From Massilia sp. METH4 (lineage in GTDB: Bacteria; Pseudomonadota; Gammaproteobacteria; Burkholderiales; Burkholderiaceae_D), in assembly GCF_037094685.1 (NCBI RefSeq), contig NZ_CP146614.1, forward strand, positions 4,216,001-4,280,000: a DNA stretch of 64,000 nucleotides, written 5' to 3'. A program made the position numbers and the translations under genes. Positions within the stretch are counted from its first letter, which is position 1, and the number at the start of each line of letters is the position of its first letter. A model generated the notes under the pieces. That model did not search any database. It was not told the DNA's origin and saw only the letters and a program-made list of their open reading frames with translations. Positions 38,754-64,000 of this stretch are shown here, piece by piece.

Positions 38754-39671
38754 ATGCGCCACCGTCAGTTAGACCTCAACCTCTTGATCCCGTTACAGGC
38801 CTTGCTGGAACACCGCAGCGTTACGCGCGCGGCATTGGCCGTCAACGTCAGCCAGTCGACCATGAGCGGAATCCTGCAGCGGTTGCGCGACAGTCTCGGG
38901 GATCCGCTATTGGTACAGGTAGGACGGCACATGCGGCTGACACCGCTTGCGGAGAGCCTGATCGGCCCGTCACAGCACGTACTGGATGACATCGATTCGT
39001 TGCTTGAAACCCAGGCAGTGTTCGATCCTGCTACTGTGCGCAGCAGGATCGTCATCGCCACGTCCGACTACGTGGTATCGGATTTTCTGGGAGACTTGCT
39101 GGCACGCATCGCGCAAGAGGCCCCGCGCTTGCGTTTCGTTCTGGCGCCACCGGTGGCTGACTGGGGCAACGAAATGGACGCCGGCCGTGTCGACTACGTC
39201 ATCTGTCCTGCACATGTATCGTCTAGCGAGCATCCCTCGACAGTCCTTTTCGAGGACACCTATACCGTCGTTGCATGGGCAGAGAACCGGCCCACTCGAG
39301 GCATCGAGAGGCTCAGCTTGGAGCGGTATCAGTCTCTCGGGCATGTGATCTTCCATACTGCCGTGGGGCGTCCCTGGTTCGAGCAGTGGTACACAACCGA
39401 GTATGGCGAAAGCAGGCGTATTGAAATGCTCGTCAGCGGTTTCAACATGATGCCCGCCCTGGTGATCGGCACCGACCGCATTGCCACGGTCCAGACGCGT
39501 CTCGCGCGGCGCGCGGCTGCTGTGATGCCGCTCAAACTGATGGCGTTGCCCATCGCGGTACCTCCGCTCGTCGAGGTGGTGCAGTGGAGCCGGCATCGCG
39601 AAGCTGATCCTGTCCACAAATGGGTGCTGGCCCGACTGCTGGCGGGCGCTTCGGAACTGGCGGCCGTCTAG
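38754..39671 (+). CDS. NodD/FdeR-like LysR regulator of the catabolic supercluster
   Basis: A protein of 305 residues with AGGA before the ATG. The N-terminus reads MRHRQLDLNLLIPLQALLEH, then NVSQSTMSGILQRLRDSLGD, LLVQVGRHMRLTPLAE. The DLNLL opening, the SQxxMS helix and the LTPLAE end of the HTH are hallmarks of the NodD/LinR/NahR branch, which bind aromatic or flavonoid inducers through the C-terminal domain. It lies directly upstream of the first Rieske operon. NodD-box-like ATC-N9-GAT sites lie at 39796 and 49857. I infer that it activates both regions when a phenolic or flavonoid is present, like FdeR of Herbaspirillum. Confidence 0.9.
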   Translation: MRHRQLDLNLLIPLQALLEHRSVTRAALAVNVSQSTMSGILQRLRDSLGDPLLVQVGRHMRLTPLAESLIGPSQHVLDDIDSLLETQAVFDPATVRSRIVIATSDYVVSDFLGDLLARIAQEAPRLRFVLAPPVADWGNEMDAGRVDYVICPAHVSSSEHPSTVLFEDTYTVVAWAENRPTRGIERLSLERYQSLGHVIFHTAVGRPWFEQWYTTEYGESRRIEMLVSGFNMMPALVIGTDRIATVQTRLARRAAAVMPLKLMALPIAVPPLVEVVQWSRHREADPVHKWVLARLLAGASELAAV

Positions 39672-39795
39672 AGGCATTCATCGCATCACCATCGATGCTT
39701 CTGCGCTGCCACCCGGTATGCCTGCCATCGACCGTAAGCAGCACGCTGCCTCAGCCCCTGCCGAGGCATAGTTCCTGGGTTTGCAAGCACCATGC

Positions 39796-39810
39796 ATCGA
39801 GAAATCCGAT
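39796..39810. promoter_or_regulatory. NodD-box-like site before the Rieske operon
   Basis: ATCGAGAAATCCGAT has the NodD-type core ATC-N9-GAT (also T-N11-A) with arms ATCG/CGAT. It lies about 100 bases upstream of the oxygenase ATG at 39911, a normal activator distance. A further inverted repeat, CCACTA...TAGTGG, spans 39818-39847, closer to the start. Confidence 0.55.
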
Positions 39811-39910
39811 AATCTGACCACTAAAAAATCGATTTGTCCAATAGTGGATCGGTCTCTTAGAGTATCACTTAGCCGAGCCGTAGAGCTTACGGCTACTCTT
39901 GGAGACTAAT

Positions 39911-41008
39911 ATGAGCATTGAATTCCTCCCGGGCGCCTGCACGGCCGCCGGCGGTCCATACGCGGGCAAGGTGGGCGCCAACTATCCTCGCAATCAGTGG
40001 TGGGTGGCCGCGACGACCGATGAAGTCACGCGCCAGCCCATGCGGCGCTGGCTGCTCGACCTGCCGGTCGCCCTGTACCGTACGGAGGCGGGCGCCGTCG
40101 TCGCGCTCGACGATCGTTGCCCCCACCGCTGGGCGCCGCTGTCCAGCGGCTGGCTCGAAGGAGACAACATCGTTTGTGGCTATCACGGGCTGCGTTTCTC
40201 GACGGAAGGGAGATGCGTCAAGGCGCCTACCCAGGCGAACCCGCCGACGCGCGCCAAGGTGCATGCCTATCCTGTCCGCGAGATCGGTCCACTGGTGTGG
40301 ATCTGGACCGGCGACCCCGCCCTGGCCGCCGACAGCGAACCGCACGCCGTGGACTGGCACGTTGATCCAGGCTGGAGCCTGGTCGGCGGCGCGATGGAAG
40401 CGGAAGCCAACTACATGCTGCTGAAGGAAAACGTGCTGGACTTGACACACTTCGGCTACGTCCACCGCACTACTTTCAAGATCCTCGATTTCGACCGTCC
40501 ACCCGAAGTCACGGTCAAGGGCGAACAGGTTGAATTTCACCTTGAATTCCCCGCTGTCAAGCTGGCGCCATTGTTCGGCGCTCTGACGGGCTTTGGCGAA
40601 CGGCCGATTGCGCGTGTGAACTGGGGGCGCAGCCTGTCGCCCGCTCTGCACCTCGCGGGGCAGGATTTTACCGATCCCGCGCCGCAAGCCGGTCAACGCC
40701 GCACCGCCGCCTTCCGCGTCATGCACGCTACCACGCCGATCAGTCCGACCCGCATGCACTACTTCTGGATGGCGGGCTGGGACGTGCCGTTGACCCAGGA
40801 ACAGCGCGACCTGATGCGCGACACCACGTTGCTCGGTTTTAAGGAGGACAAGGACATGATCGAAGCCATCCAGGCCACGATCACGCAGGACCCGCGCGGC
40901 CTGAACTACCCGGAAATCATGGTGACGAGCGACCAGTCGGCAGTGCAGGCGCGCCGGCAGTTGCAGATTCGCCTGGCCCGCGATGGCGAATTGAACCAAC
41001 GGAATTGA
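39911..41008 (+). CDS. Rieske mononuclear-iron oxygenase, VanA-like demethylase group
   Basis: A protein of 365 residues; the ATG at 39911 has GGAG upstream, and a TTG four codons earlier is less likely. The Rieske [2Fe-2S] ligands are Cys70, His72, Cys89 and His92 (CPHRWAP; CGYHGL). The catalytic iron site is ENVLDLTHFGYVH with Asp177, His180 and His185. Length and layout match single-component alpha-type oxygenases such as vanillate O-demethylase or dicamba monooxygenase, which release formaldehyde from methoxy or N-methyl groups. No reductase is in this operon, so the VanB-like reductase at 62852 probably serves both Rieske enzymes. Substrate unknown. Confidence 0.93.
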   Translation: MSIEFLPGACTAAGGPYAGKVGANYPRNQWWVAATTDEVTRQPMRRWLLDLPVALYRTEAGAVVALDDRCPHRWAPLSSGWLEGDNIVCGYHGLRFSTEGRCVKAPTQANPPTRAKVHAYPVREIGPLVWIWTGDPALAADSEPHAVDWHVDPGWSLVGGAMEAEANYMLLKENVLDLTHFGYVHRTTFKILDFDRPPEVTVKGEQVEFHLEFPAVKLAPLFGALTGFGERPIARVNWGRSLSPALHLAGQDFTDPAPQAGQRRTAAFRVMHATTPISPTRMHYFWMAGWDVPLTQEQRDLMRDTTLLGFKEDKDMIEAIQATITQDPRGLNYPEIMVTSDQSAVQARRQLQIRLARDGELNQRN

Positions 41009-41013: not shown

Positions 41014-42363
41014 ATGACAAAACGAACCCTGATACGTTGCGACCGCCTGTTTACCGGCCTTGAGGACGAAATACGCCGTGACCATACCATCATCGTCGAA
41101 GAGGGCTTCTTTACCTACGTCGGCCCGGCATCCAACGCACCTGCTCAGGCGCCGGGCGATACGGTCATCGATGCTGGCGAACGGTTCGTCATGCCGGGCC
41201 TGGTAGATGCGCATACCCATCTTGTATTCGGCAATGCCCGCAGCGAGGAAGATATCGATTTCTGGGGCACACCGGAATTTCGCGCGCTGCGGGGACTGTT
41301 CTTCGCCCAGCGCGTCCTGGCCGCAGGCTACACGTCCATCGTGGTGCCGGGAGACGCCGGGAACTGCAGCATCAGTGTGCGGGATTCGATCAATGCCGGC
41401 CTGTTCGACGGCCCGCGCATTGCTGCCAGCAGCAACGTGATCGCCAACCGCCACAGCCTGAACGACTGGTTTCCCGAGCATGTCGGCACGCCGGACTATG
41501 TGACCGGACGGCTGTGCACGACGCGCGATGCGCAGATCGAAGAAGTGCGCCGCCAGGCCAAGGCCGGCGTCGATTGCATCAAGATCGCGATGGACGGTAC
41601 GCACTTCCGCGAGAACGGCACGCACATCGCGGCGTTCACTCAGGAAGAAATCAGCGGCATGGTGACCGAGGCCCACAGGCTCGGCAAGAAGATCGTCGTG
41701 CACGCCTATGGCAAGGAAGCTGTCCTGTATGCGGCCAGGGCCGGCGTGGACATCATCAACCATGCATTCTTTGCCGACGACGAGTGCATCGAAGCGATGC
41801 TCAAGTCCGGCAGCCACGTCTCGCCGACGCTGACATTCCTGCGCAATAACGTCGACTTCTGCCCGAGCTGGGAACCGACCGCCACCTCCGGCTACCAAGG
41901 CGCGCAACGGCGCATCATCGAGGTCGCGAAAAAAACCTTGAACCGCATGCGCGAAGCCGGCGTGCCCTTCATGGCAGGCAGCGATTCGGGCTTTGCCGTG
42001 ACGCCGTACGGCGAGTGGCACGCCCGGGAAATCGAAATCCTGGTCGACTGGATCGGCTTCACGCCGGCCCAGGCGCTGCGCATCGCGACCGCCGGCACGG
42101 CCAAGGCGATGCCGCGCGGGCAACTGCTGGGTGCGATCGAGGCAGGCCGCCGCGCCGACTTCCTGCTCGTCGACGGCGACCCGCTGGCCGACGTACGCGT
42201 GCTGCAGCAGCGCGAAGCAATCGACGCGGTGTACCTCGACGGCCGCTTGATGTCGTTCAAGCAGCGCCCATACGACGCCTACAAGGTGAGCCACTTCAAT
42301 TCGCTGAAGTGGACCGATGTCTACAGCCGTGAGCGCGTTGCCGAAATTCGCGCCACGACCTGA
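41014..42363 (+). CDS. Metal-dependent amidohydrolase family protein
   Basis: A protein of 449 residues from the ATG at 41014; an in-frame start at 41005 overlaps the previous stop. The amidohydrolase barrel shows MPGLVDAHTHLVFG (HxH), KIAMDG with a carboxylatable lysine, VVHAYGKEA and IINHAFFADDE (third and fourth His), and MAGSDSGFAVTPYGEW with the catalytic Asp. It resembles the prolidase/imidazolonepropionase-like group acting on amides or cyclic amides and esters. It would hydrolyse an intermediate or conjugate in the cytosol, in one operon with the Rieske oxygenase and two small accessory genes. Confidence 0.92.
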   Translation: MTKRTLIRCDRLFTGLEDEIRRDHTIIVEEGFFTYVGPASNAPAQAPGDTVIDAGERFVMPGLVDAHTHLVFGNARSEEDIDFWGTPEFRALRGLFFAQRVLAAGYTSIVVPGDAGNCSISVRDSINAGLFDGPRIAASSNVIANRHSLNDWFPEHVGTPDYVTGRLCTTRDAQIEEVRRQAKAGVDCIKIAMDGTHFRENGTHIAAFTQEEISGMVTEAHRLGKKIVVHAYGKEAVLYAARAGVDIINHAFFADDECIEAMLKSGSHVSPTLTFLRNNVDFCPSWEPTATSGYQGAQRRIIEVAKKTLNRMREAGVPFMAGSDSGFAVTPYGEWHAREIEILVDWIGFTPAQALRIATAGTAKAMPRGQLLGAIEAGRRADFLLVDGDPLADVRVLQQREAIDAVYLDGRLMSFKQRPYDAYKVSHFNSLKWTDVYSRERVAEIRATT

Positions 42364-42382
42364 ATCCCAAGCGAAAAATACC

Positions 42383-42781
42383 ATGACACAGACTTTGCAA
42401 GAACAACTGATCAGCCTGGAACAGAATCGCTGCCGCTGCCTGATGGAGAACGACATCGACGGCTTGCGCAATCTGCTGTCGAAGGAACTGGTGCACGTTC
42501 ATACACGGGCCAATGTCCATAGCCTGGACGAATATCTCCATTTTGTCCGGGAGGTGACCCAGGTCCTCGACCTGAGCCGCGGTCCACTGACGGTACGCGA
42601 ACTGGGCGACGGTGCCGCCATCATGCTGGGCCGCCAGACCAACCGCTCGCGGGTACGTTCCAGCGGGAGCGTCGTCGTGACGCAGGCCCAGGTCACGCAG
42701 GCCTGGGTGCGCGAACAGGATGGCGCATGGCGCATTGCTGTCTTCCACGGTACCGCGCTGCCGGCGGAGCAGGCCAAATGA
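42383..42781 (+). CDS. NTF2-like (SnoaL/DUF4440) protein
   Basis: A protein of 132 residues from the ATG at 42383. The cone-shaped NTF2 fold is suggested by the pattern LMENDIDGLRNLLSKELVHV, then SLDEYLHFVREV and a C-terminal WRIAVFHGTAL strand. Relatives include small hydratases, isomerases or cyclases and nuclear transport-like binding proteins in aromatic and polyketide pathways. It may catalyse a tautomerisation or hydration in this operon, but no active-site assignment is possible. The next gene overlaps by ATGA. Confidence 0.82.
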   Translation: MTQTLQEQLISLEQNRCRCLMENDIDGLRNLLSKELVHVHTRANVHSLDEYLHFVREVTQVLDLSRGPLTVRELGDGAAIMLGRQTNRSRVRSSGSVVVTQAQVTQAWVREQDGAWRIAVFHGTALPAEQAK

Positions 42782-43200
42782 AGCTCGATGTCGCGCTGGC
42801 CGTTGCGCAGGGTGTCCTGGCCGAAGGGCAAACTCGCCACTTTGCACCGTTGACGGTGGCGGTCCTCGATGCGGGCGGCCACACGGTAGTGCTGCTGCGC
42901 AGCGATGGGTCTAGCCTATTGCGGTCGCAGATTGCCACCGGCAAGGCATACGGCGTACTGGGCTTGGGCTTCGGCGGCCGTGAACTGGCGGCGCGCGCCG
43001 CGAAGATGCCTGCATTTTTCGACGCCCTCATTGAACTGTCGGACGGCCGCATGGTACCGGTTCCCGGTGGCGTGCTGGTGCGCTCGGCCGATGGTGCGCT
43101 GCTGGGCGCCGTCGGGGTCAGCGGCGACACCTCCGACAACGACGAGATCTGTGCGCTGGCGGCGATCGAGGCGACCGGACTGGTTGCCGATGCAGGGTAG
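42778..43200 (+). CDS. GlcG/HbpS-family small protein
   Basis: A protein of 140 residues starting in an ATGA overlap with the NTF2-like gene. The family pattern is clear: LTVAVLDAGGHTVVLLRSDG, then ATGKAYGVLGLG and GGVLVR...LLGAVGVSG. The GlcG/HbpS (DUF336) fold binds haem or acts in C-C bond or corrinoid-related accessory roles. It is often the last small gene of aromatic or glycolate catabolic operons with no settled function. It ends in a strong hairpin overlapping the stop codon. Confidence 0.88.
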   Translation: MKLDVALAVAQGVLAEGQTRHFAPLTVAVLDAGGHTVVLLRSDGSSLLRSQIATGKAYGVLGLGFGGRELAARAAKMPAFFDALIELSDGRMVPVPGGVLVRSADGALLGAVGVSGDTSDNDEICALAAIEATGLVADAG

Positions 43201-43369: not shown

Positions 43370-44728
43370 ATGCATATGGAACAAAGCCGCAGCGAAAATT
43401 ACCGCAAGCTGATCGATGAAAGCAGGCTTTCGGGCATGCAGTGGACCGTGATCGCCCTGTGTTTCCTGATCATGTTCCTCGACGGCCTGGATACCGTACT
43501 GATCGGCTTCCTCGCACCGTACATCGGCAAGGAATGGCACTTGAGCAAGGATGCGTTGACACAGGCATTCACGGCAGGTGTCGTCGGGCTGATGATCGCT
43601 GGATGCCTGGCGGGCATCCTGGCCGACCGCGTTGGCCGCCGCCCCTTGCTGCTGCTGGCGGTAACGCTGTTCGGCGCGAGCAACCTGGCGACCGCTTACT
43701 GCGATTCGCTGGGCATGCTGGTTGCCTTGCGCTTCCTGACCGGCCTCGGCCTGGGCGCTGCCATGCCCTGTGCGGTGGCACTGGTATCCGAGTATGCACC
43801 TGCGCGGCGGCGCGGCCTGATCACTACATCGATGTACAGCGCCTATACCCTGGGCGGTGCGGCAGTCGGCTGGATTACGCCGATCATCGCGCAGCAGCAC
43901 GGCTGGCGCGCCATGTTCGTGGTCGGCGCAGTACTACCGCTCGCACTGTTGCCTTTCCTGTTGTTGTCGATGCCGGAATCGATCGGGTTCCTGGCAGAGC
44001 GCCGGCGCGACCTCGCCAAGGTTGCAGCCCTGCTGTCACGCATCCTCGGGCGGCGGGTCGACGCAGCGGCGCTGGCTTTGACTGCTCAGCCCGTGGCGCC
44101 CAGCAACCCGCTATGGACGATCCTGTCGGCTGGCTATGGCCTGCAGACGACGCTGCTGTGGCTCGGCAATGGAGCTGGACTGCTGATTACCTTTACGCTG
44201 ATTAACTGGCTGCCGAGCTTCCTGAGCTTCAAGCACGTCACGACCTTCACGGCCGCGTTCAGTGCTGCCTGCTTGCAGGCCGGCGGTGCGATCGGCTCGC
44301 TAGTCATGGGCTGGCTCATGGACCGCATCGACGGCCGCAAGGTCACGGTCTGCGTGTACCTGGGCGCTGCTGTCCTTTCTCTGGCCTGGCCCGTTGCCCT
44401 CGACGGCGGAGATGGCGCGTTGCTCGCAGCCGGTTTTGCCGCGGGCATGCTGGTTATGGGCGGCCAGACGGGATTCCAGGTACTGGCCACTTCGGTGTAT
44501 CCGGTCGCGGTGCGCGCAACCGGACTGAGCTGGATGCAGAGCGTCGGTCGCCTCGGCGGCATCCTCGGCATCCAGCTGGCCGGCCTGGGTATCGCCCGCA
44601 ACATCGATCCGGTGCTGATGCTCCAGGCGCTTGCCGTGCCGGCGCTGGTAGCAGCGCTCGGCGCAGCAGCGCTGCACTGGCGTTTGCGCCGGCGACCAGG
44701 CTATGGTGCCGCAACCAGCCACGGCTGA
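43370..44728 (+). CDS. AAHS-family aromatic acid MFS permease
   Basis: A protein of 452 residues with 12 hydrophobic segments; an ATG two codons later is an alternative start. The signature DGLDTVLIGFLAPYIG in TM1 is the acidic DxxD motif of the aromatic acid:H+ symporters (PcaK, BenK, MhpT), and motif A reads GILADRVGRRPLLL. It would import an aromatic acid using the proton gradient. The neighbouring porin gene could supply outer-membrane entry. It lies between the first Rieske operon and the convergent FdhA operon, inside the catabolic supercluster. Confidence 0.94.
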   Translation: MHMEQSRSENYRKLIDESRLSGMQWTVIALCFLIMFLDGLDTVLIGFLAPYIGKEWHLSKDALTQAFTAGVVGLMIAGCLAGILADRVGRRPLLLLAVTLFGASNLATAYCDSLGMLVALRFLTGLGLGAAMPCAVALVSEYAPARRRGLITTSMYSAYTLGGAAVGWITPIIAQQHGWRAMFVVGAVLPLALLPFLLLSMPESIGFLAERRRDLAKVAALLSRILGRRVDAAALALTAQPVAPSNPLWTILSAGYGLQTTLLWLGNGAGLLITFTLINWLPSFLSFKHVTTFTAAFSAACLQAGGAIGSLVMGWLMDRIDGRKVTVCVYLGAAVLSLAWPVALDGGDGALLAAGFAAGMLVMGGQTGFQVLATSVYPVAVRATGLSWMQSVGRLGGILGIQLAGLGIARNIDPVLMLQALAVPALVAALGAAALHWRLRRRPGYGAATSHG

Positions 44729-44972: not shown

Positions 44973-45998
44973 ATGGACTTACGCGCCGGTCTGGTCATCG
45001 CCGCCATGTGCGCCGCTCTTCTCTTATCCGCCGACGCCACAGCGCAGTCGGCCACTTCGCAAGTAACGTTTGGCGGAACTATCGATACGTACATAGGACG
45101 CCAGCAGTTGGCCGGCCAGGCTTCCGCCGCCACGGTCAGCCCCAGTGGACTGACCACGTCGTTCTGGAGCATTTCAGCCGTCGAAGACCTGGGCGGCGGG
45201 TTCAAGGCGCAAGCTTTCCTGTCCGCATTCATGCAGCCCGATACGGGCAGTTCAGGGCGCTATCCCGGCGACGCGTTTTTGTCACGCCGTGCATCGGTCG
45301 GTATTGCCGGCGCCTTCGGCGAGATAAGCGTCGGCCGCATGGCATCGCCATTTTTCCTGACGATGGTGGGGTTCGATCCGTTCGCTGGCGGCTCGCTGGG
45401 TCCGATCTTCCAGCATACCTATCCAGGTGGACAGCCATTGGCGGCGCCGATGCAGGTCGGCGATTCGAGCATCAGCAACATGATAAACTATCAGACACCG
45501 GCGCTCCATGGGATCAAGCTGAATGCTTCTTACGGGTTAAGCGAGCAGGCCGGCCAAGGTGACAATGACCGCCTCGGCGCGAGCCTGACCTACACCAATG
45601 GCCCCTTGGCCGTTGCGATGGCGATGGAGCGCAACAAAGCCCAGCTTGATCCCGGCGAAACCAGGCAGGATGACGCCATGCTGGCTGCAGCCTACGACTT
45701 CGAAAGGGGCAAGGGATTCCTGCAAATAGCGAGGCACAAGAAAAATTCAATGGACATAGAGTACTGGACTTCCATGGTTGGCGCGACGGTTCCGATAGGC
45801 GCAGGCAACCTGCTGGTCGCCTGGGGAAGAACGCGCTACGAAGCTGCGGCGCTGAGAAAAAACCGCAGTAGTACGACTGTCGTGTACGACTACGTCCTGT
45901 CCCGACGAACCGACATCTATCTCGGACTGGAGAATGACCGGATCACGGGGGCGTCGGTCGGCAACAGCCTGTTCGCCGGCATGCGTCTCAGGTTTTAA
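44973..45998 (+). CDS. Gram-negative general porin (Burkholderiales type)
   Basis: A protein of 341 residues; GGAG precedes the ATG. A signal peptide (about 1-24, ending TAQS) is followed by a beta-barrel beginning VTFGGTIDTYIG, with the typical FWSISAVEDLGGGFKAQAFL strand pair and SVGIAGAFGEISVGRMASP. It ends in MRLRF, the C-terminal phenylalanine recognised by the BAM complex. It forms a trimeric outer-membrane channel. Its place next to an aromatic-acid permease suggests substrate entry. Confidence 0.93.
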   Translation: MDLRAGLVIAAMCAALLLSADATAQSATSQVTFGGTIDTYIGRQQLAGQASAATVSPSGLTTSFWSISAVEDLGGGFKAQAFLSAFMQPDTGSSGRYPGDAFLSRRASVGIAGAFGEISVGRMASPFFLTMVGFDPFAGGSLGPIFQHTYPGGQPLAAPMQVGDSSISNMINYQTPALHGIKLNASYGLSEQAGQGDNDRLGASLTYTNGPLAVAMAMERNKAQLDPGETRQDDAMLAAAYDFERGKGFLQIARHKKNSMDIEYWTSMVGATVPIGAGNLLVAWGRTRYEAAALRKNRSSTTVVYDYVLSRRTDIYLGLENDRITGASVGNSLFAGMRLRF

Positions 45999-47570: not shown

Positions 47571-47666
47571 CTTCATCTCCTGTTTGTATTGCTGGGTGGC
47601 GACGGCTTTCACGATGTTGTCGTCAAGGCCGCCAATGCTTCAAAATTCGTTAGCAAACTTTGCCAT

Positions 47667-49719: not shown

Positions 49720-49856
49720 CGCTTGTCTCCTGATGTCGGGTTGGTCTGGGTTGTCGACAGGCCATCCGATTACCGGGGCCGACGACCTGTCGAATCCGGC
49801 ATGCCCCTGCATGCGTTCGAGGGACTCCATTGTTGAAGATGTCTGCAGGGATATTA

Positions 49857-57030: not shown

Positions 57031-57036
57031 ACCGGT

Positions 57037-57084: not shown

Positions 57085-58245
57085 ATGTTCAAATATTTCC
57101 CTACCAATTACGTGTGGAACCTGTCGATCAACCTGGCCCTGGAAATGGGCGCCAGGGTCGGCGAGATCGAGGAAATGTGCGCCCCCCTGCAGGAGGCAGC
57201 CACCCAGCCCGACGCGGCCGGCACGAAGGCATTCCGCGAGACCTGGGTCCGGATGGCTGACAAACTGTGTGGCTTGGCCGAGGAAGACGAGACACTCGGC
57301 CGCTTGATCTCGGCCGGCGACAAGTACGGTCGTGCGTCGACCTACTACATCACGGCCGAGCGTCTGCTTGCGCACGGCTCGCCGGGCCGCATTGAACTGT
57401 ACAAGCGCTTCATCGACGTGTTCAACAAGAGCGTCCGCCTGGCAGGCGAGAACTGCGAGCGCGTCGAGATCCCTTACGACAACGCGCATATTGCCGGCCT
57501 GTACACCCGTGCCGAAGGCGTTGGCCGCCCTGCGCCGCTGCTGGTGCAGGTAAACGGCCTTGATTCGACTAAGGAGATGAAATACCGCGTCGGACTGCCG
57601 CGGTGGCTCGCGCAGCGTGGCGTTTCGTCGCTGGTGATCGACCAGCCGGGCAGCGGCGAGGCGCTGCGCTTGCACGACATGCATGCGGTCTTCGACAGCG
57701 AGCGCTGGGCCAGCAAGGTAGTCGACTGGCTGGAAACGCGCGCCGACGTGGACCCGAAGCGCATTGGCCTCGAAGGCGTGTCGCTGGGCGGTTATTTTTG
57801 CCCGCGTGCGGTAGCCTTCGAGCCGCGCTTCGCCTGTGGTGTTGCGTGGGGGGGCAACCACGACTGGCGCGACGTGCAGAAGAAGCGGCTGGCCAAAGAA
57901 GGTTCCTTCCCGGTGCCGCACTACTGGGAGCACGTGCGCTGGGTATGGGGCGCGAAGGACCAGGACGACTTCATGCGAATCGCGGAGAACGTGCACCTGG
58001 ATGGCGTGCTGGACCGCATCAAAGTGCCGTTCCTGGTGACGCACGGCAGCAAGGACTCGCAGATTCCGCTGCACTGGGCGGAGCGCACCTACGAACAGCT
58101 CGTCAACAGCCCGAAGCGCGAACTGAAGATTTTCACTGAGCGCGAGGGGGGGGTGCAGCACTCCAGCTTCGACAATTCCGCCAATGCAGGCGCCTTCATC
58201 GCCGACTGGGTTGCCGAGACGCTCGGCGGACGCACCGCCCTGTAA
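57085..58245 (+). CDS. C-C bond hydrolase of the DHPON-hydrolase/Ayg1 group
   Basis: A protein of 386 residues. A helical N-terminal domain of about 125 residues precedes an alpha/beta-hydrolase core: IPYDNAHIAGLYTRAE, elbow GLEGVSLGGYFCPRA with the nucleophile Ser, acid Asp in VTHGSKDSQIP and His in GGVQHSSFDN. This architecture matches 2,6-dihydroxypseudooxynicotine hydrolase and fungal Ayg1, which cleave C-C bonds of 1,3-diketone-like groups by retro-Claisen chemistry. It directly precedes the extradiol dioxygenase, so it probably hydrolyses the ring-opened product. Substrate inferred only from context. Confidence 0.9.
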   Translation: MFKYFPTNYVWNLSINLALEMGARVGEIEEMCAPLQEAATQPDAAGTKAFRETWVRMADKLCGLAEEDETLGRLISAGDKYGRASTYYITAERLLAHGSPGRIELYKRFIDVFNKSVRLAGENCERVEIPYDNAHIAGLYTRAEGVGRPAPLLVQVNGLDSTKEMKYRVGLPRWLAQRGVSSLVIDQPGSGEALRLHDMHAVFDSERWASKVVDWLETRADVDPKRIGLEGVSLGGYFCPRAVAFEPRFACGVAWGGNHDWRDVQKKRLAKEGSFPVPHYWEHVRWVWGAKDQDDFMRIAENVHLDGVLDRIKVPFLVTHGSKDSQIPLHWAERTYEQLVNSPKRELKIFTEREGGVQHSSFDNSANAGAFIADWVAETLGGRTAL

Positions 58246-58280: not shown

Positions 58281-59237
58281 ATGAATATCATCGGACCCGA
58301 TGCACTGCTGTTCGGCGTCGACGACGTCGCCGCCTGCGCGCAATACCTTACCGACTACGGCCTGAAGCCGGTCGATGCCGGCCCCGGCGGCGGCCGTTTC
58401 GAGGCTCTCGACGGCAGCGCAATCATCCTGGCGCACAAGGATTCGCCGCTGCTGCCACCGGCAATGCCCACCTCCAGCATGCTGCGCAAGACGATCTACG
58501 GCGTGGCCGACCACGCCACCCTCGACGCTATCGCCGGCGAACTTGGGCGGGATCGCGAAGTGCGCAGCCTGCCTGACGGCAGCGTCGAAAGCGTCGACGA
58601 CGCCGGCTTCGTACTGGGTTTCCAGATCACCGTGCGGCGCCAGCTCGACATGCCGGCCGAGCGCGTCAACGCGCCTGGCTCGCCAGGCCGTCCGGTCAAC
58701 CATTTCGCGGTCGACGAAGCGAATCCGGCCTTGCCGCGCACGCTGTCGCACGTCGTGTATTTCGTGCCCGACGCGGCGCAGGCCGAAGCTTTTTATGTGA
58801 ACCGTCTCGGCTTCGCATGTACCGACCGCCTGATTGGCGCAGGCCCTTTCCTGCGCCCGGCCGGCACGCTGGACCACCATACCCTGTTCATGATCCAGAC
58901 GCCCCCGTTCATGAAGGGCATCGAGCACTTCACCTTCCACATGGGCGGGCCAACCGACGTCATGCACGCCGGCACGCGCTTCGTGAACAAGGGCTACCAG
59001 TCGTTCTGGGGACCGGGGCGCCACAAGATGGGCTCGAACTGGTTCTGGTACTTCAACAGCCCGCTGGGCTGCCATGTCGAGTACGACGCGGACATGGACC
59101 TGCACGACGACAGCTGGCAAGCCCGCGAGGTACCGATCAGCGCCGATGCCTCGCAACTGTTCCTGTTCGAGATGCGCGACAAGTGGGCGCCGGGCGGCCC
59201 GCCGCCGGGTGCGGCAGGCGCGGCCGAGCGTCACTAG
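58281..59237 (+). CDS. fdeC: Two-domain VOC extradiol dioxygenase, FdeC-like
   Basis: A protein of 318 residues with two VOC (betaalphabetabetabeta) domains, the layout of type I extradiol dioxygenases. The Fe(II) triad falls in the second domain: His157 (LSHVVYF), His216 (GIEHFTFHMGG) and Glu267 (GCHVEYDADMDL). The catalytic region FWGPGRHKMGSNWF also fits. It would open a catechol-type ring next to the hydroxyls. Followed by a Rieske ferredoxin and a FAD monooxygenase, it matches the order I recall in the fde operon, where FdeC opens ring A of 8-hydroxynaringenin. The symbol rests on that synteny and should be tested. Confidence 0.85.
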   Translation: MNIIGPDALLFGVDDVAACAQYLTDYGLKPVDAGPGGGRFEALDGSAIILAHKDSPLLPPAMPTSSMLRKTIYGVADHATLDAIAGELGRDREVRSLPDGSVESVDDAGFVLGFQITVRRQLDMPAERVNAPGSPGRPVNHFAVDEANPALPRTLSHVVYFVPDAAQAEAFYVNRLGFACTDRLIGAGPFLRPAGTLDHHTLFMIQTPPFMKGIEHFTFHMGGPTDVMHAGTRFVNKGYQSFWGPGRHKMGSNWFWYFNSPLGCHVEYDADMDLHDDSWQAREVPISADASQLFLFEMRDKWAPGGPPPGAAGAAERH

Positions 59238-59257
59238 GCGGGGCAGGGGAGAGCGCA

Positions 59258-59605
59258 ATGGCCCGCTTCTACCTCGGCCCGGCCAGCGCCATCGCCGAAG
59301 GCACATCGGTCGGGTACGACCCGCAAGGGACGGGCCGCGACAGTGTGCTGGTGGTGCGCAAGGATGGCCGCCTGTACGGCTATCTCGACCGCTGCCCGCA
59401 CTACGGCGACACACCCATGGCCTGGCGCAAGGATGCCTACTTGAACGGCGAAGGCACGCGCATCGTGTGCGCGGCGCACGGAGCGCAATTTTCCATCGAG
59501 AGCGGTGCCTGCACGCTGGGGCCGTGCCTGGGCCGGTCACTGCGGCGGGTGCCGCTCGCGGTTGACGCAGACAACAGCATTCATGCAGAACTAGAAGACG
59601 TTTAA
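59258..59605 (+). CDS. Small Rieske [2Fe-2S] ferredoxin-like protein
   Basis: A protein of 115 residues carrying a complete Rieske motif: Cys46, His48 (CPHYGDTP) and Cys71, His74 (CAAHGAQF). The spacing is that of NirD/BphF-type ferredoxins, and there is no TM or signal. It would shuttle single electrons, or assist the neighbouring dioxygenase or monooxygenase. No ring-hydroxylating alpha/beta pair is adjacent. In the fde operon a similar Rieske protein lies between dioxygenase and monooxygenase, so it may keep the extradiol iron reduced. Confidence 0.88.
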   Translation: MARFYLGPASAIAEGTSVGYDPQGTGRDSVLVVRKDGRLYGYLDRCPHYGDTPMAWRKDAYLNGEGTRIVCAAHGAQFSIESGACTLGPCLGRSLRRVPLAVDADNSIHAELEDV

Positions 59606-59616
59606 GGAGACACATC

Positions 59617-60744
59617 ATGGCAGCAGCAAACCGGGTACTCATCATCGGCGGCGGTTTTTCCGGCATGTCGGCGGCAATTGAATTGCGCAAGCGCGGCGTC
59701 GAGGTGGATCTCGTGGAAATCGATCCGGGCTGGCGTTCGTATGGCGCCGGTATCAGCTTGGGCGGGGCGACGCTGCGGGCGTTCCGGACGCTCGGCATAC
59801 TCGATGAATTCCTGCGCCGCGGCGCGGCGTCGGATGGCGTCGACGTGTTTCTCGCCAACGGCGCGCAGGTCGCGACGCTGCCCACCCCTCGGGTAGCCGG
59901 CCCGGACGTTCCCGGGGGCGGGGCGATCCTTCGCCCCGTACTGGCGGCCATCCTCGCGGATGCGACACGCGCATCGGGGGCCGGCGTTCGCCTCGGCTGT
60001 ACCTTCACGACGATCGCGCATGACGAAGGAGGCGTCGATGTGGGCTTCAGCGACGGCAGCAGTGGCCGCTACGACCTGGTGATCGGCGCCGACGGCCTGT
60101 ATTCGAAGGTACGCGATGTGCTGTTCCCGGATGCGCCGAAACCGAAATACAGCGGGCAAGGCGTCTGGCGCGCTGTGCTGCCGCGCCCACCGGAAGTCGA
60201 GCGCGCCGGAATGTGGCTCGGACCGAAGGTCAAGACTGGCGTGAACCCTGTGTCTGCCAGCGAAATGTACCTGTTCGTGACGGAAGACCGTGCCGAAAAC
60301 ACACACGTCGACCCGTTGCGCTTCGTACCGATGCTGAAGGATCTGCTGGCGCCGTTCCCGGCCCCGCTGATGCAGGCGATCCGTGGACAGCTCGACGAAT
60401 CGTCGCAGGTGATCTACCGGCCGCTCGAAGCGCTGCTGATGCCCCAGCCCTGGAGCGTCGGCCGCGTTGTGCTGATCGGCGATACCGTGCACGCGACCAC
60501 GCCGCACATGGCCTCTGGTGCCTGCATCGGTATCGAGGATGCGCTGGTGCTGGCCCAGGAACTGGATAAGACCACCGAAGTGACGGGCGCGCTGGCAGCG
60601 TTCCAGGCACGGCGCTGGGACCGTTGTCGCATGGTGGTCGAGAACTCCTGCCGCCTTGGCGAGATCGAGATCGCCGGCGGCGACAAGGAAGAACATGGCC
60701 GCATCATGCGCGAGACGCTGATGAGCCTGGCGGGCCCCATCTGA
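59617..60744 (+). CDS. fdeE: FAD-dependent aromatic hydroxylase, FdeE-like
   Basis: A protein of 375 residues with AAGGAG before the ATG. Class A flavoprotein hydroxylase: VLIIGGGFSGMSAAIELRKR, DLVIGADGLYSKVR, and RVVLIGDTVHATTPHMASGA. It resembles salicylate, urate and naringenin 8-hydroxylases in size. It would insert one oxygen into a phenolic ring using NAD(P)H, producing the catechol-like substrate for the extradiol dioxygenase two genes upstream. In Herbaspirillum, FdeE does this to naringenin at C8. Assignment by family and gene order, not by alignment. Confidence 0.85.
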   Translation: MAAANRVLIIGGGFSGMSAAIELRKRGVEVDLVEIDPGWRSYGAGISLGGATLRAFRTLGILDEFLRRGAASDGVDVFLANGAQVATLPTPRVAGPDVPGGGAILRPVLAAILADATRASGAGVRLGCTFTTIAHDEGGVDVGFSDGSSGRYDLVIGADGLYSKVRDVLFPDAPKPKYSGQGVWRAVLPRPPEVERAGMWLGPKVKTGVNPVSASEMYLFVTEDRAENTHVDPLRFVPMLKDLLAPFPAPLMQAIRGQLDESSQVIYRPLEALLMPQPWSVGRVVLIGDTVHATTPHMASGACIGIEDALVLAQELDKTTEVTGALAAFQARRWDRCRMVVENSCRLGEIEIAGGDKEEHGRIMRETLMSLAGPI

Positions 60745-60808
60745 CCCGACCTGGCGGCCGTCCTTTACGGGACGCCCCCCGATGACCGAGTTGACGCAGG
60801 AGAACATC

Positions 60809-61618
60809 ATGGCCAGACGATTCGTGGATCTGTCGATCTACCTTGAGAACGAAGTACTATCCGATCCGCCGCCGCTGGCGCCGAAGATCACCTACCAGAC
60901 ACATGCGGACACGCTGCCGGAATTCATGGCGATGATCCCCGGCACGGCTGCGCAGGACTATCCCGACGGTGAGGCCGCCGCCGCGGAATGGGTGACGCTG
61001 ACCACCCACAGCGGCACCCACCTGGACGCGCCGTATCATTTTCACTCGACGATGGATGCCAGGAACGGCGGGAAGAAGCCCTCGCTCACGATCGATGAGG
61101 TGCCGCTGGAATGGTGCTTCCAGCCCGGCGTGAAACTCGATTTTCGTCATTTTCCGGACGGCTATGTCGCCACCGCCGCCGACGTGGAAGAAGAACTGGC
61201 GCGAATCGGCCACAGCCTGCAGCCGCTCCATATCGTGGTGGTCAATACGCGCGCCGGCAGCCGCTACGGCCATGGCGACTATGTGTCGGCGGGCTGCGGA
61301 ATGGGCTACGACGCCACCATGTACCTGCTCGAGCGCGGCGTGCGCCTGACCGGCACCGACGCATGGAGCTGGGACGCGCCGTTCGCGTATACGGCAAAGA
61401 AAATCGCCGAAACGGGCGACAAGTCGCTGATCTGGGAAGGCCACAAGGCTGGGCGCGATATCGGCTACTGCCACTTGGAGAAACTGCACCAGCTCGAAGC
61501 GTTGCCCGGCAACGGTTTCTTCATCAGCTGTTTCCCGCATAAGGTGCGCCGGGGTTCCGCCGGGTGGACGCGGGCGGTGGCAATCTTCGACGATGCGCTG
61601 CTGACATTGCCGCGCTGA
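60809..61618 (+). CDS. Cyclase/kynurenine-formamidase-family hydrolase
   Basis: A protein of 269 residues from the ATG at 60809 (AGGAG upstream). The metal-binding signature HSGTHLDAPYHFHS (HxGTHxDxPxH) defines the cyclase superfamily (KynB-like, manganese or zinc hydrolases). Later LVVVNTRAG-like and TDAWSWDAPFAY segments fit. Members hydrolyse formamides, lactones or ring-cleavage products, or catalyse ring closure. In this cluster it could open a lactone formed after ring cleavage. It lies between the FAD hydroxylase and the second Rieske oxygenase, in one plus-strand operon. Confidence 0.92.
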   Translation: MARRFVDLSIYLENEVLSDPPPLAPKITYQTHADTLPEFMAMIPGTAAQDYPDGEAAAAEWVTLTTHSGTHLDAPYHFHSTMDARNGGKKPSLTIDEVPLEWCFQPGVKLDFRHFPDGYVATAADVEEELARIGHSLQPLHIVVVNTRAGSRYGHGDYVSAGCGMGYDATMYLLERGVRLTGTDAWSWDAPFAYTAKKIAETGDKSLIWEGHKAGRDIGYCHLEKLHQLEALPGNGFFISCFPHKVRRGSAGWTRAVAIFDDALLTLPR

Positions 61619-61680
61619 AGCAAAACTTTACTATTCAAACTGCGTTCCGTGCCACGGGACGCCTGCACAAGGAGACAAAC

Positions 61681-62784
61681 ATGGCATTTCTACGCAACGC
61701 ATGGTACGTCGCTGCATGGGACAACGAAATCCCGGCCGACGCCCTGTTCCAGCGCACCCTGCTGAACGAATCGGTGCTGCTCTTTCGCGACGACGCCGGT
61801 GTGGTACAGGCGATCTCGAACCGCTGCGCGCACCGTTTTGCGCCCCTGCATATGGGCAAACGCGTGGCCAACGGGGTCCAGTGCCCATACCATGGCCTGC
61901 AGTTCGACGGTAGCGGAAAATGCACCGGCAATCCGCATGGCGACGGCAAGATCCCGACGGCAGCGGTCGTGAAGAGCTACCCGGTGGTCGAGAAATACAG
62001 CACGATCTGGATCTGGATGGGCGACGCCGCGAATGCCGATGCAGCGCTGATTCCCGACTTCTCCTGCATGGATCCGGAGCACTTTTACGTCGGCAAGCGC
62101 TACCTGCATGCCAAGGCAAACTACGTGCTCGAGAGTGACAACATCCTGGACCTGAGCCATATCCAGTACCTGCATCCGGGCACCCTCGGCAGCGAGACGG
62201 TATCGAATGCGATCACCAGCGTCAAGCAGGTCGGCAATACTGTGTACTCGAACCGCCAGACCGTGGCTGAGATCATGCCGGATTTCCTGTATGCCGCGAT
62301 GGGCATCCCGCATGGCCAGCCAGTGGACCGCTGGATCGACGTGCGCTGGGATGCACCCGCGAACATGCTGCTCGACGCCGGCGCGGTGGCGACCGGCGGC
62401 GAGCGCAGCGCTGGCAAGTCGTTCCCGCTGCCGCACCTGTTCACCCCGGAGACCGACACCAGCACCCACTACTGGTTCTCCTTCTGCGTCCCGAAGGCCC
62501 TGGGCGAATTCGCCAAGCAGGTCGCAGAGGAACAGGTGCAGGCATTGAGCGTGCCATTTACCAACGAGGATCTGCCGATGCTCGAGGCGCAACAGCAGAT
62601 GATGGGCGACGCCGATTTCTGGTCCTTGAAGCCGGTGCTCCTGCCGGGAGACGCCGGTGCGATTCGTGCGCGCCGGGTGCTCGACACGCTGATCGCTGCC
62701 GAACAGAAGCGCGCCGCGCAGCAGCCGCTCCAGGAACCGGCGGTGGTGCCGGTCCCGGTCCGGGCGCCAGTGTCATCGCACTGA
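61681..62784 (+). CDS. VanA-like Rieske O-demethylase oxygenase
   Basis: A protein of 367 residues from the ATG at 61681 (AAGGAG upstream). It opens MAFLRNAWYVAAWDNEI, closely following vanillate O-demethylase VanA. Rieske ligands are Cys49, His51, Cys68 and His71 (CAHRFAP; CPYHGLQF). The mononuclear iron site is SDNILDLSHIQYLH with Asp157, His160 and His165. It would demethylate a methoxyl group and release formaldehyde, using electrons from the VanB-like reductase 67 bases downstream. The substrate may be a methoxylated flavonoid or a methoxybenzoate derived from it. Confidence 0.94.
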   Translation: MAFLRNAWYVAAWDNEIPADALFQRTLLNESVLLFRDDAGVVQAISNRCAHRFAPLHMGKRVANGVQCPYHGLQFDGSGKCTGNPHGDGKIPTAAVVKSYPVVEKYSTIWIWMGDAANADAALIPDFSCMDPEHFYVGKRYLHAKANYVLESDNILDLSHIQYLHPGTLGSETVSNAITSVKQVGNTVYSNRQTVAEIMPDFLYAAMGIPHGQPVDRWIDVRWDAPANMLLDAGAVATGGERSAGKSFPLPHLFTPETDTSTHYWFSFCVPKALGEFAKQVAEEQVQALSVPFTNEDLPMLEAQQQMMGDADFWSLKPVLLPGDAGAIRARRVLDTLIAAEQKRAAQQPLQEPAVVPVPVRAPVSSH

Positions 62785-62851
62785 TGCTTTTTGCGGCAGT
62801 ACGCGGCGCAGACCGTCTGCCGTTCCTTTCCACGTCAGAGGTACCAGAATC

Positions 62852-63805
62852 ATGAACAGCATTCAAGTCAAGGTAGTCTCCCGCCGAATGGAGGCCGAAC
62901 GCATCGCCAGCTTCGAACTGGCCCGTATCGATGGGGGCGCTTTACCCCCGTTCTCGGCCGGGGCCCATATCGACGTGGAGATCCGTCCCGGGCTCGTGCG
63001 CCAGTATTCACTCTGCAATGATCCCGACGAGACACACCGCTACCTGATTGCAGTGCTGCGCGACGCGGCGTCGCGCGGCGGCTCCGTCGCCATGCACGAC
63101 GACCTGCAGGTGGGGAGCACACTTCGGATCAGCGAGCCGAAAAACCACTTTCCCCTCGTGCCGGCCCCCCACTATCTGCTGTTCGCGGGCGGCATTGGCG
63201 TCACGCCGATCCTGTGCATGGCAGAGCGCCTTGCCCGTACCGGTGCCCGGTTCACGATGCACTACTGCGCCCGCTCGCCCGGCCACGCCGCATTTGCGGA
63301 TCGCATCGCGCTGTCCGGTTTTGCCGGCCGGGTGCACTTCCACTTCGACTCCGGCGCAGCGGAACAGAAGCTCGACCTGTCGGCGGTGCTGGCACAGGCA
63401 CAGGATGCCCTCCTCTATGTCTGCGGCCCGGCCGGATTCATCGACTTTGTCACCGGTGCGGCAAAGGCGGCGGGGTGGCCGGCCCACGCGGTGCACCAGG
63501 AATACTTCGGCATGACACCCCAGGACAGTTCGGACGACACCGCGTTCGACGTACGCATCGCCAGCAGCGGCAATACTTACCGTGTTCCCGCAGACCAGAC
63601 AGTGGCCCAGGCGCTTGCGGAACATGGCATCGACATTCCCATGTCGTGCGAGCAGGGCGTATGCGGAACCTGCATCACGCGCGTGCTGGATGGCATGCCG
63701 GACCACCGCGACATGTATTTCAGCGACGAGGAAAAGGCGTGCAACGACCAGTTCACACCGTGCTGTTCGCGTGCCAGGAGCCCGCTGCTGGTACTGGACC
63801 TGTAA
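62852..63805 (+). CDS. VanB-like flavin/[2Fe-2S] oxygenase reductase
   Basis: A protein of 317 residues of the phthalate-dioxygenase-reductase type: an FMN-binding barrel (GAHIDVEIRPGLVRQYSL), an NAD domain (LLFAGGIGVTPILCMAERL; LYVCGPAGFIDFV) and a C-terminal plant-type ferredoxin domain with CEQGVCGTC and a fourth Cys in FTPCCSR. It moves electrons from NADH through FMN to the Rieske oxygenase. It is adjacent to the VanA-like gene and is the only such reductase seen in the window, so it may serve both Rieske oxygenases. Its stop overlaps the next start (TAATG). Confidence 0.95.
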   Translation: MNSIQVKVVSRRMEAERIASFELARIDGGALPPFSAGAHIDVEIRPGLVRQYSLCNDPDETHRYLIAVLRDAASRGGSVAMHDDLQVGSTLRISEPKNHFPLVPAPHYLLFAGGIGVTPILCMAERLARTGARFTMHYCARSPGHAAFADRIALSGFAGRVHFHFDSGAAEQKLDLSAVLAQAQDALLYVCGPAGFIDFVTGAAKAAGWPAHAVHQEYFGMTPQDSSDDTAFDVRIASSGNTYRVPADQTVAQALAEHGIDIPMSCEQGVCGTCITRVLDGMPDHRDMYFSDEEKACNDQFTPCCSRARSPLLVLDL

Positions 63806-64000
63806 TGCATACGCCTGTGCTCGAAACCGCTGGCACTGGTGCCAAGTCGGCCGCCCGGGCGAACAATGAGACCCCCATGCCAACCTATTACCCCCTTCGT
63901 ACCGCCGTCATCCTGATGCTTTCCCACGTTGCCGGCATGATCGACCTGGTGGCGCTGCCGCTGTGGATCGGTGCACTGGTCGGGCATTACGGTCTCGACT
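63805..64000 (+). CDS. MFS transporter, 3' end cut by window edge
   Basis: An ATG overlapping the reductase stop opens a frame still open at base 64000 (65 codons). After about 30 polar residues it reads YYPLRTAVILMLSHVAGMID, then LVALPLWIGALVGHYGL, which looks like TM1 and the start of TM2 of an MFS permease. Another ATG (MPTYYP, 63877) could be the true start. Tight coupling to the demethylase reductase suggests a transporter for the same pathway. Too short to assign a subfamily. Confidence 0.65.
   Translation, partial: MHTPVLETAGTGAKSAARANNETPMPTYYPLRTAVILMLSHVAGMIDLVALPLWIGALVGHYGLD

Follow-up and report, generated by a model that had tools for sequence, protein, structure and literature searches.

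A 64,000-nucleotide window of the Massilia sp. METH4 genome (bases 4216001-4280000 of a single contig of 6.88 Mb) carries a gene cluster related to the fde (naringenin degradation) genes of Herbaspirillum seropedicae. Judged from sequence, it is probably a mosaic cluster of the fde type that would break down flavonoids aerobically through the A ring and whose reach would extend to O-methylated substrates. Support comes from family-level identities, gene layout, a shared operator-like motif, the mosaic pattern of relatedness, and the presence, in other species, of fde-type operons that hold VanA2-VanB or HisD-SDR; from these we infer each reaction, the substrates and the order of demethylation. 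Statements about published pathways draw on parts of the papers cited. Gene types were assigned from open reading frames (ORFs) with Pfam and NCBIfam searches of the window, and some motifs and the ferredoxin from the sequence itself (Table 1). All the types named in a preliminary description of this DNA are present near the positions it gave.

The core is of the fde type by sequence, gene order and tree. The preliminary description had placed hydrolase, VOC, Rieske and FAD genes in that order at 57.1-60.7 kb and likened them to fde; the four genes occupy 57085-60744, and the likeness is borne out by identity, order and the FAD-protein tree, with Herbaspirillum huttiense standing in for H. seropedicae. 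Scanning named genomes with the FAD protein gave 305 confirmed relatives, from which the best 80 loci were kept, some of them cut by contig ends; one relative (76% identical) bears the source label "naringenin degradation protein FdeE." All four core genes occur together in 73 of the 80 loci. Identities to the window proteins across these loci are 74-88% (hydrolase), 65-82% (VOC), 43-63% (Rieske), 67-80% (FAD) and 81-89% (cyclase), and the order B-C-D-E is constant in the loci mapped, apart from some gene-caller gaps. Identities to Massilia PDC64 are 86% (hydrolase), 81% (VOC), 61% (Rieske) and 80% (FAD), and those to H. huttiense are 73% (VOC), 68-69% (FAD) and 87% (cyclase, at the matching operon position).

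The H. huttiense locus consists of LysR, a MetA-type channel, hydrolase, VOC, Rieske, FAD, MFS, cyclase, cupin, FAH and epimerase-like genes, and the annotated Burkholderia anthina locus keeps this order with an extra EthD gene. FdeA, FdeC, FdeD, FdeE and FdeR are named in the literature (PMC8552027, PMC11069340, PMC10799723), and the pathway itself is described in PMC8552027, PMC10799723, PMC11303751 and PMC11069340; the letters F to J are assigned here from the H. huttiense gene order, not from a paper. Homologues of FdeF, FdeG, FdeI and FdeJ are 48%, 87%, 50% and 45% identical to the Herbaspirillum genes. Among solved structures the hydrolase comes closest to a C-C hydrolase, 2,6-dihydroxypseudooxynicotine hydrolase (2jbw), which ifc locus 59470 likewise resembles (PMC11069340), and solved relatives of the VOC protein include dihydroxybiphenyl dioxygenases. 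An 84-row FAD tree groups the window protein with Massilia PDC64, Telluria antibiotica, Duganella guangzhouensis, Pseudoduganella umbonata and a second copy from the same genome (support 99/97). A strong FdeE relative is found in 10 of 145 genomes of the window's family, its own genome counted, the 145 being an even draw from a larger group.

The second copy belongs to a second fde core at 5.898 Mb, with identities to the first of 73% (FAD), 84% (VOC) and 86% (hydrolase). Its FAD protein lies nearest to that of P. umbonata in the tree; thus the two cores are not fresh duplicates, and recent duplication within the genome was ruled out. At 5.896-5.902 Mb (locus L095, ~11800-17640), cyclase, FAH, FAD, VOC and hydrolase genes lie on the minus strand, a 38.9-bit motif of the fde type discussed below stands ~60 bp before the hydrolase, and a 704-aa ORF adjoins.

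Such a second core could hold the flavonoid role, while the window cluster, its FdeE homologue having changed substrate, handles a related benzopyranone or polyphenol that is not a flavonoid. HisD and SMP-30 are absent from the B. anthina classical operon and from the H. huttiense locus over the stretch covered, which fits this alternative. However, the FAD, VOC, hydrolase and cyclase proteins are 68-87% identical to Herbaspirillum fde genes and the FAD protein falls inside the fde tree, and a non-flavonoid substrate is decidedly improbable.

The core lies within a run of 11 genes (50344-63805) that all point the same way and are spaced by -4 to 67 bp, so that they probably form a single transcription unit in which VanA2-VanB follow the fde core. 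The window ends inside the cluster, which continues to ~69.15 kb. The preliminary description called it an enlarged fde cluster. For the transport genes and the cyclase, this view has to be given up: DUF1329, BNR and MMPL genes occur together in 48 of the 80 fde loci and the cyclase in 58, which rules them out as novel additions. The remaining additions, VanA2-VanB, HisD-SDR-FdhA and SMP-30, do look linked to the core.

Different parts of the cluster have different closest relatives. HisD (88%), SDR (81%), DUF1302 (74%) and DUF1329 (88%) have their nearest relatives in Massilia putida; against PDC64, DUF1302 and DUF1329 fall to 49% and 67%. The hydrolase, VOC, Rieske, FAD, FAH (77%) and epimerase-like (76%) genes are closer to PDC64, with identities to M. 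putida of 63, 60, 45, 56, 66 and 61%, respectively. BNR (64% to M. putida, 65% to PDC64) and MMPL (86% and 82%) are near equal. Because the left genes are closest to M. putida and the core genes to PDC64, the cluster seems to be a mosaic drawn from two fde lineages: a canonical core would have been joined, at about 53-57 kb, to the left half of a HisD-type cluster.

The candidate O-demethylase and its reductase, VanA2 and VanB, start 62 bp after the cyclase gene. Both VanA proteins of the window have the CxH..CxxH and D..H....H iron-site motifs and a VanA_C domain. The best solved relative of VanA2 is 7qwt (250.4 bits), which PMC12445004 lists as GdmA of Rhizorhabdus wittichii RW1; the references of that article include a paper on Rieske monooxygenases that O-demethylate guaiacol. 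The pairing of fde with VanA is not unique to this cluster: 16 of the 80 fde loci have VanA-like genes within 10 kb, as does the Azospirillum sp. B510 fde unit. The 80 loci span 1.51 Mb, and the 17 such genes in the 16 loci exceed an expectation of 0.78 that is based on 124 VanA_C matches among ~241 Mb (39 genomes), where expected genes are Pfam matches and observed genes are tblastn hits of at least 200 aa. Thirteen of the 39 genomes were chosen with VanA hits near fde known, and the 80-locus count is free of this choice. The 80 loci are mutually related; therefore the 16 are not independent events. A tree of VanA rows, drawn up without the VanA genes of L071 and L079 (missed by the motif filter) and without a short L009 piece, has several separate VanA lineages in fde loci.

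In B510 the unit runs in one direction, DUF1302-DUF1329-B-C-D-E-SMP30-G-FAH-BNR-MMPL-VanA-VanB-epimerase, with VanA and VanB 64% and 57% identical to those of the window. A search of 72,556 plasmid records with VanA2 gave five matches at E 1e-80, the best being B510. A VanA2 relative of 81-82% identity lies ~16 kb from fdeE in D. guangzhouensis, followed by VanB and, after a gap of <1 kb, by pcaH, pcaG, pcaB and pcaCD in the same direction. A related hydroxylase, IfcA, accepts glycitein, formononetin and biochanin A in recombinant form, whereas 4',7-dimethoxyisoflavone is not accepted (PMC11069340). Because of these pca neighbors and the acceptance of methoxylated isoflavones by IfcA, demethylation is probably late, acting on a methoxybenzoate after removal of the A ring; early demethylation is the alternative order. 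The place of VanA2-VanB in the apparent fde unit agrees with O-demethylation as a step of the route, but demethylation before ring-A hydroxylation, as the preliminary description had it, is less likely.

Alternatively, the cluster could be an ordinary fde cluster for non-methylated flavonoids that shares an aromatic island with VanA2-VanB and FdhA, the latter serving lignin-derived vanillate-type acids. An intradiol dioxygenase gene (4294054) and a ring-hydroxylating oxygenase gene (4295276) lie 14-16 kb beyond the window end, in what looks by eye like a cat/ben region; another vanA-like gene at 4.684 Mb is close to an intradiol dioxygenase gene at 4.690 Mb, pcaH-like by eye. VanA_C genes also lie within 10 kb of 6 of 78 intradiol dioxygenase loci (14 of 78 within 25 kb), as compared with 13 of 41 fde loci, a set that includes 13 genomes picked with such a gene already known. 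On the other hand, VanA2-VanB appear to share one unit with the cyclase and stand inside the fde unit in Azospirillum, of a different class, and the FdhA operon is preceded by an fde-type motif. Such a division of labor is therefore unlikely, though far from negligible.

Further VanA-like genes were observed elsewhere. Downstream of the T. antibiotica fde cluster (L009:18805-18972), a 55-aa VanA2-like fragment (75%) lies beside transposase-like ORFs. Beside the fde locus of Noviherbaspirillum Root189 (L107, adjoining L077) there is a second, divergent FAD gene (51%), a VanA2-like gene (43%) and a LysR gene with a 35.1-bit motif. The VanB-like gene of D. guangzhouensis (L111, ~6250-7200) is in two frames, through either a frameshift or an assembly slip. 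The METH4 genome has six VanA_C matches in total, including two adjacent minus-strand genes at 4203.2-4205.0 kb (L122), ~11 kb before the window.

The second addition is a minus-strand operon of HisD, SDR and FdhA. HisD probably starts at 49719 (GTG after AGGAGAC) instead of 49830. Enzymes of the HisD family carry out a two-step oxidation of alcohol to acid. Among solved structures, HisD scores best against sulfopropanediol dehydrogenases (398.7 bits) and lower against histidinol dehydrogenases (264.2 bits). Since 10-kb flanks barely reach HisD at the spacing seen in the window, the search was widened beyond the flanks of the 80 loci, and the closest relatives found (84-87% in D. guangzhouensis, 88-89% on a M. 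putida plasmid) both proved to lie inside fde-type operons with FAD (55-56%), VOC, Rieske, HisD, SDR, FAH and hydrolase genes. The next plasmid match is at 68.6%. SDR relatives stand beside HisD in the fde-type operons of M. putida (81%) and Duganella (72-73%). The M. putida plasmid (NZ_CP019037.1, L124) is typed as mobilizable, and MFS, heme-binding, amidohydrolase and porin genes lie beside its cluster.

The likeness to sulfopropanediol dehydrogenases raises the alternative that HisD-SDR serves to oxidize sulfopropanediol (DHPS) and adjoins the fde cluster as a module of its own, which the occurrence of weaker HisD relatives away from fde genes would also fit. But the closest relatives found sit within fde-type operons, between the Rieske ferredoxin and FAH genes, and the HisD operon has the motif found on the LysR2 side, which makes a chance neighbor very improbable.

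FdhA scores 769.1 bits against TIGR02819 (cut-off 636.95). A relative of 92% identity occurs in the Noviherbaspirillum Root189 fde locus, the sole one among the 80 loci, and has a 30.6-bit motif 110-150 bp upstream of its ORF. Formaldehyde disposal as part of the cluster, proposed in the preliminary description, is thus consistent with an fde-type motif before the FdhA-containing operon here and before FdhA in Noviherbaspirillum.

The motif emerged from a pairwise comparison of six gaps on both strands: 30 of 39 bases agree between a stretch upstream of HisD and one in the LysR2-SMP-30 gap, in the same direction relative to the gene. Clear relatives occur in the LysR2-side promoters of two further fde loci (L008, L009) and of the Duganella HisD cluster. 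A four-site matrix that includes the LysR2-SMP-30 site and leaves out the HisD site scores the latter at 48.1 bits, as compared with at most 18.4 in 100 shuffles of the 97 kb searched and at most 32.7 in 78 other fde loci. In 18 of the 45 LysR-bearing loci among these 78, the best site is within 350 bp of the LysR start (2.0 expected). A general matrix was built from 13 picked sites, none from the window: 10 of the 18 LysR-proximal sites (13 of the 18 were displayed) and three from L009 and L097. It ranks HisD (25.7 bits), LysR2-SMP-30 (24.6) and the region before DUF1302 (18.9) highest in the 97 kb. The maximum in 100 dinucleotide shuffles is 24.5, 18.9 is reached by 6 of the 100, and one of 18 background stretches, the flank of a Derxia fde locus (L117), reaches 24.3.

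Sites precede DUF1302 in L008 and L009 as well, and three further loci (L124, L125, L126) have the motif before fde genes at 30.0 to 37.9 bits. In M. putida the motif precedes DUF1302, and in Azospirillum B510 and B. anthina it stands in the gap that separates LysR from the first gene of the operon. According to PMC10799723, FdeR binds T-N11-A boxes, and its footprint covers 60 bp of the fdeR-fdeA intergenic region. LysR2, beyond the window, is likely the fde regulator and would bind the 39-bp motif; it is 37% identical to the H. huttiense LysR, and the motif lies in its divergent promoter with SMP-30. The NodD-like LysR within the window (LysR1), which the preliminary description counted with the fde-like genes, is not the likely regulator; on present evidence it was rejected in this role, as the LysR1-VanA1 gap has no fde-type motif (best 2.6 bits). 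The nod-box core ATC-N9-GAT matches once in each of two gaps, a count without a chance estimate, and these matches were rejected.

The third addition is the SMP-30 gene. Sixty loci exceed 20 kb: an FdeH-type cupin is present in 43 and an SMP-30 relative (>50%) in 4, no locus has both and 13 have neither; the P value for no overlap is 0.005, or 0.02 if L008 and L009 count once. The window cluster, the Duganella HisD cluster and Azospirillum B510 all have SMP-30 without an FdeH-type cupin. No match to the FdeH-position cupin is found in the window plus 33 kb (in 17 of the 60 loci, as far as they were covered, it is likewise not found), nor to the FdeA-position MetA-type channel, and M. putida has neither SMP-30 nor cupin in 31 kb. 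The ifc cupins act on a pyranone, which a double cupin mutant accumulates (PMC11069340). Because of this role and because SMP-30 belongs to a lactonase-type family, SMP-30 may, by analogy, take the pyranone step here.

Taken together, these features suggest the following route for the fde-type cluster extended to O-methylated flavonoids. The substrate would enter by way of the DUF1302, DUF1329, BNR and MMPL proteins and the FdeF-like MFS transporter. FdeE with FdeD would hydroxylate ring A and FdeC would open it, in keeping with the C8 hydroxylation and A-ring opening reported for FdeE, IfcA, FdeC and IfcB (PMC11069340, PMC8552027, PMC10799723). FdeB would make the C-C cut, converting a flavanone to an aryl-dihydropyranone and oxaloacetate, products proposed by chemistry from the ifc product 2-hydroxy-5-(4-hydroxyphenyl)-4H-pyran-4-one (PMC11069340). 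FdeG and SMP-30, the latter replacing the FdeH cupin, would open the lactone; FAH (by a beta-diketone-type cut), the epimerase-like protein, SDR and HisD would then convert the side chain to an aromatic acid. Where ring B bears a methoxyl group, as when hesperetin gives isovanillate, VanA2-VanB would yield protocatechuate and FdhA would oxidize the formaldehyde; the genome has an intradiol dioxygenase gene, pcaH-like by eye, at 4.69 Mb. LysR2 would control the set through the 39-bp operator.

Several observations weigh against this route. Loss of the FdeB-like hydrolase in ifc did not affect daidzein degradation (PMC11069340). No HisD relative occurs in the 80 fde loci with their 10-kb flanks, and fde genes are absent around four weaker HisD relatives (G140, 78%; G153, 74%; Ramlibacter paludis, 68%; H. 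huttiense, 62-63%), so that the fde linkage is limited to the closest HisD group. Only one other genus supports the FdhA link. The HisD motif came to light through its match to the LysR2-SMP-30 gap, whose site is itself in the first matrix, and its general-matrix score barely exceeds the background stretch and the dinucleotide shuffles. The VanA events are not independent, given the relatedness of the 80 loci, and the 41-locus sample was partly picked for VanA. The cupin exclusion depends on four SMP-30 loci, and neither gene is seen in M. putida or in 13 of the 60 loci. Finally, the VanA1 unit is left unexplained.

That unit (VanA1-AmidoH-SnoaL-HbpS-MFS-porin) has its own LysR. The best solved relative of VanA1 is the dicamba O-demethylase DdmC (171.3 bits). 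We lean slightly toward the unit being a separate aromatic pathway under LysR1, outside the flavonoid route: the gap before VanA1 is devoid of the fde-type motif, the two closest fde relatives show neither AmidoH nor VanA1 in the surrounding 56 and 41 kb, and AmidoH is found at E<=1e-140 in 1 of 145 family genomes, its own. Plasmid searches with AmidoH and VanA1 gave distant matches only. Nevertheless, MFS, HbpS-type and porin genes stand beside the M. putida cluster, though only 28-45% identical to those of the window; AmidoH relatives lie within the fde loci of R. paludis (78%, L079), in a stretch with GH3, MFS and downstream VanA_C genes, and of a Rubrivivax metagenome-assembled genome (70.7%, L065), and a Paraburkholderia hospita plasmid has adjacent VanA1-like and VanA2-like genes with an FdeE relative (64%) ~36 kb away. 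The Ramlibacter stretch has one motif site, beside LysR and away from AmidoH, and the Rubrivivax genome has none at 20 bits. These relatives weakly suggest a possible link to the flavonoid route. A route covering most of the genes, as first described, would take in the main unit and the FdhA operon, and only doubtfully the VanA1 unit.

Comparison with known systems places the cluster among its relatives. H. seropedicae SmR1 fde, compared through the loci of H. huttiense, Herbaspirillum sp. GW103 and B. anthina, shares the FdeB-C-D-E order, the cyclase, FAH, epimerase-like and MFS genes, and a LysR with an operator-like motif in a divergent promoter; it differs in having the MetA-type channel and cupin, and the window cluster has DUF1302/DUF1329/BNR/MMPL, SMP-30, VanA2-VanB and HisD-SDR-FdhA instead or in addition. 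The Azospirillum sp. B510 plasmid pAB510c (L125) shares SMP-30 without cupin, VanA2-VanB within the unit and the same transport genes, with 70-82% identity for hydrolase, VOC, FAD and cyclase and 51% for Rieske, but has no match to HisD, SDR or FdhA in 29 kb. M. putida shares HisD, SDR, DUF1302, DUF1329 and MMPL at the identities given above, but its core is more distant, and VanA, VanB, FdhA, SMP-30 and cyclase have no match in 31 kb.

The ifc isoflavone pathway of Variovorax sp. V35 would have A-ring 8-hydroxylation, VOC cleavage and a 2,6-DHPON-type hydrolase in common with the window cluster, whereas IfcA is reported as 36.3% identical to FdeE and the window protein groups with the FdeE type; ifc uses cupins on the pyranone, and the window locus has no FdeH-type cupin (PMC11069340). 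Variovorax V35 did not degrade glycitein, and the consulted portion of the same paper describes no demethylase for ifc. GdmA and DdmC share VanA_C and Rieske domains and iron-site motifs with VanA2, which has a VanB-type reductase beside it; unlike them, VanA2 is placed in a flavonoid unit.

Among the open PMC papers listed, as judged from titles and the starts of abstracts, none describes fde together with VanAB, HisD-SDR-FdhA and SMP-30, and the main text of PMC4440368 has no occurrence of fde. The suggestion that the full combination is undescribed therefore stands within those limits, but fde with VanA also occurs in the 16 loci. What is new here is an fde core and VanAB joined with HisD-SDR-FdhA under a shared operator-like motif, along with SMP-30 in place of the cupin. 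The fde and ifc systems are two aerobic pathways through the flavonoid A ring, and in the parts of the papers used neither is assigned a demethylase or formaldehyde handling. The locus raises the question of whether VanAB, FdhA and HisD-SDR widen the fde diet to hesperetin-type compounds. The motif may serve as a marker for flavonoid-regulon genes in other genomes, and the replacement of the FdeH cupin by SMP-30 suggests another way of carrying out the pyranone step. As a tentative and rather doubtful generalization, the FdeR-type operator, found from Azospirillum to Herbaspirillum, may define a movable flavonoid regulon that here captured a methoxy branch (O-demethylase, reductase and formaldehyde dehydrogenase) and a HisD/HpsN dehydrogenase repurposed for a flavonoid-derived alcohol, giving an O-methylated-flavonoid pathway with formaldehyde disposal.

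Table 1. Genes and operator-like sites of the cluster and its surroundings, in window coordinates
Feature	Position	Strand	Remarks
LysR1	38754..39671	+	regulator adjoining VanA1 unit; PF00126, PF03466
VanA1, Rieske monooxygenase, O-/N-demethylase class	39911..41008	+	VanA_C + Rieske; CPH..CGYH, DLTHFGYVH motifs
AmidoH, amidohydrolase, imidazolonepropionase/Xaa-Pro dipeptidase-like	41014..42363	+	PF01979
SnoaL-like (DUF4440) protein	42317..42781	+	start uncertain; domain search
HbpS-like protein	42727..43200	+	start uncertain; domain search
MFS transporter	43370..44728	+	domain search
Gram-negative porin	44973..45998	+	domain search
FdhA, glutathione-independent formaldehyde dehydrogenase	46371..47612	-	third gene of HisD operon; TIGR02819
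SDR dehydrogenase	47667..48434	-	second gene of HisD operon
HisD/HpsN-family dehydrogenase	48427..49830	-	PF00815; likely start 49719
Operator-like 39-bp motif preceding HisD operon	49879..49917	- (strand of gene behind)	
Weaker motif preceding DUF1302 unit	49990..50028	+ (strand of gene behind)	24.8 bits; 18.9 with general matrix
DUF1302 protein	50344..52023	+	opens main unit; domain search
DUF1329 protein	52042..53394	+	domain search
BNR/YCF48-like protein	53447..54577	+	domain search
MMPL/RND-type transporter	54574..57030	+	domain search
FdeB-type alpha/beta hydrolase, C-C hydrolase class	57085..58245	+	GVSLGG motif
FdeC-type VOC extradiol dioxygenase	58281..59237	+	Pfam Glyoxalase
FdeD-type Rieske ferredoxin	59258..59605	+	from sequence; CPH..CAAH
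FdeE-type FAD hydroxylase	59617..60744	+	GxGxxG-like, DG, GD motifs
FdeG-type cyclase-family hydrolase	60782..61618	+	PF04199; HSGTHLDAPYH motif
VanA2, candidate Rieske O-demethylase	61681..62784	+	VanA_C + Rieske
VanB-type reductase	62852..63805	+	domain search
FdeF-like MFS	63877..64980	+	only 63877..64000 inside window
LysR2	65084-66022	-	beyond window
Operator-like site, LysR2-SMP-30 gap	66042		beyond window
SMP-30	66108-67151		beyond window
FAH	67198-68193		beyond window
Epimerase-like gene	ends 69149		beyond window

Two ORFs are wrong-strand calls, 64027-65136 (over FdeF) and L095 11854-12618 (over the second cyclase). The epimerase-like gene is followed by a gene with a weak GH35/GH42 and DUF5597 match and, farther on, by aromatic-ring genes; the names cat, ben, chemotaxis and porin outside the window, and IS, are mostly by-eye readings. 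The fde loci of Massilia yuzhufengensis (L010) and R. paludis (L079) have GH3 genes, and L010 also has GH2 and LigAB-type dioxygenase genes, which suggests that fde loci may also deglycosylate and use other routes for ring B. At 20745-26654, well to the left of the cluster, the window has an RND efflux-like set, recognized by eye, near a TetR-type ORF.

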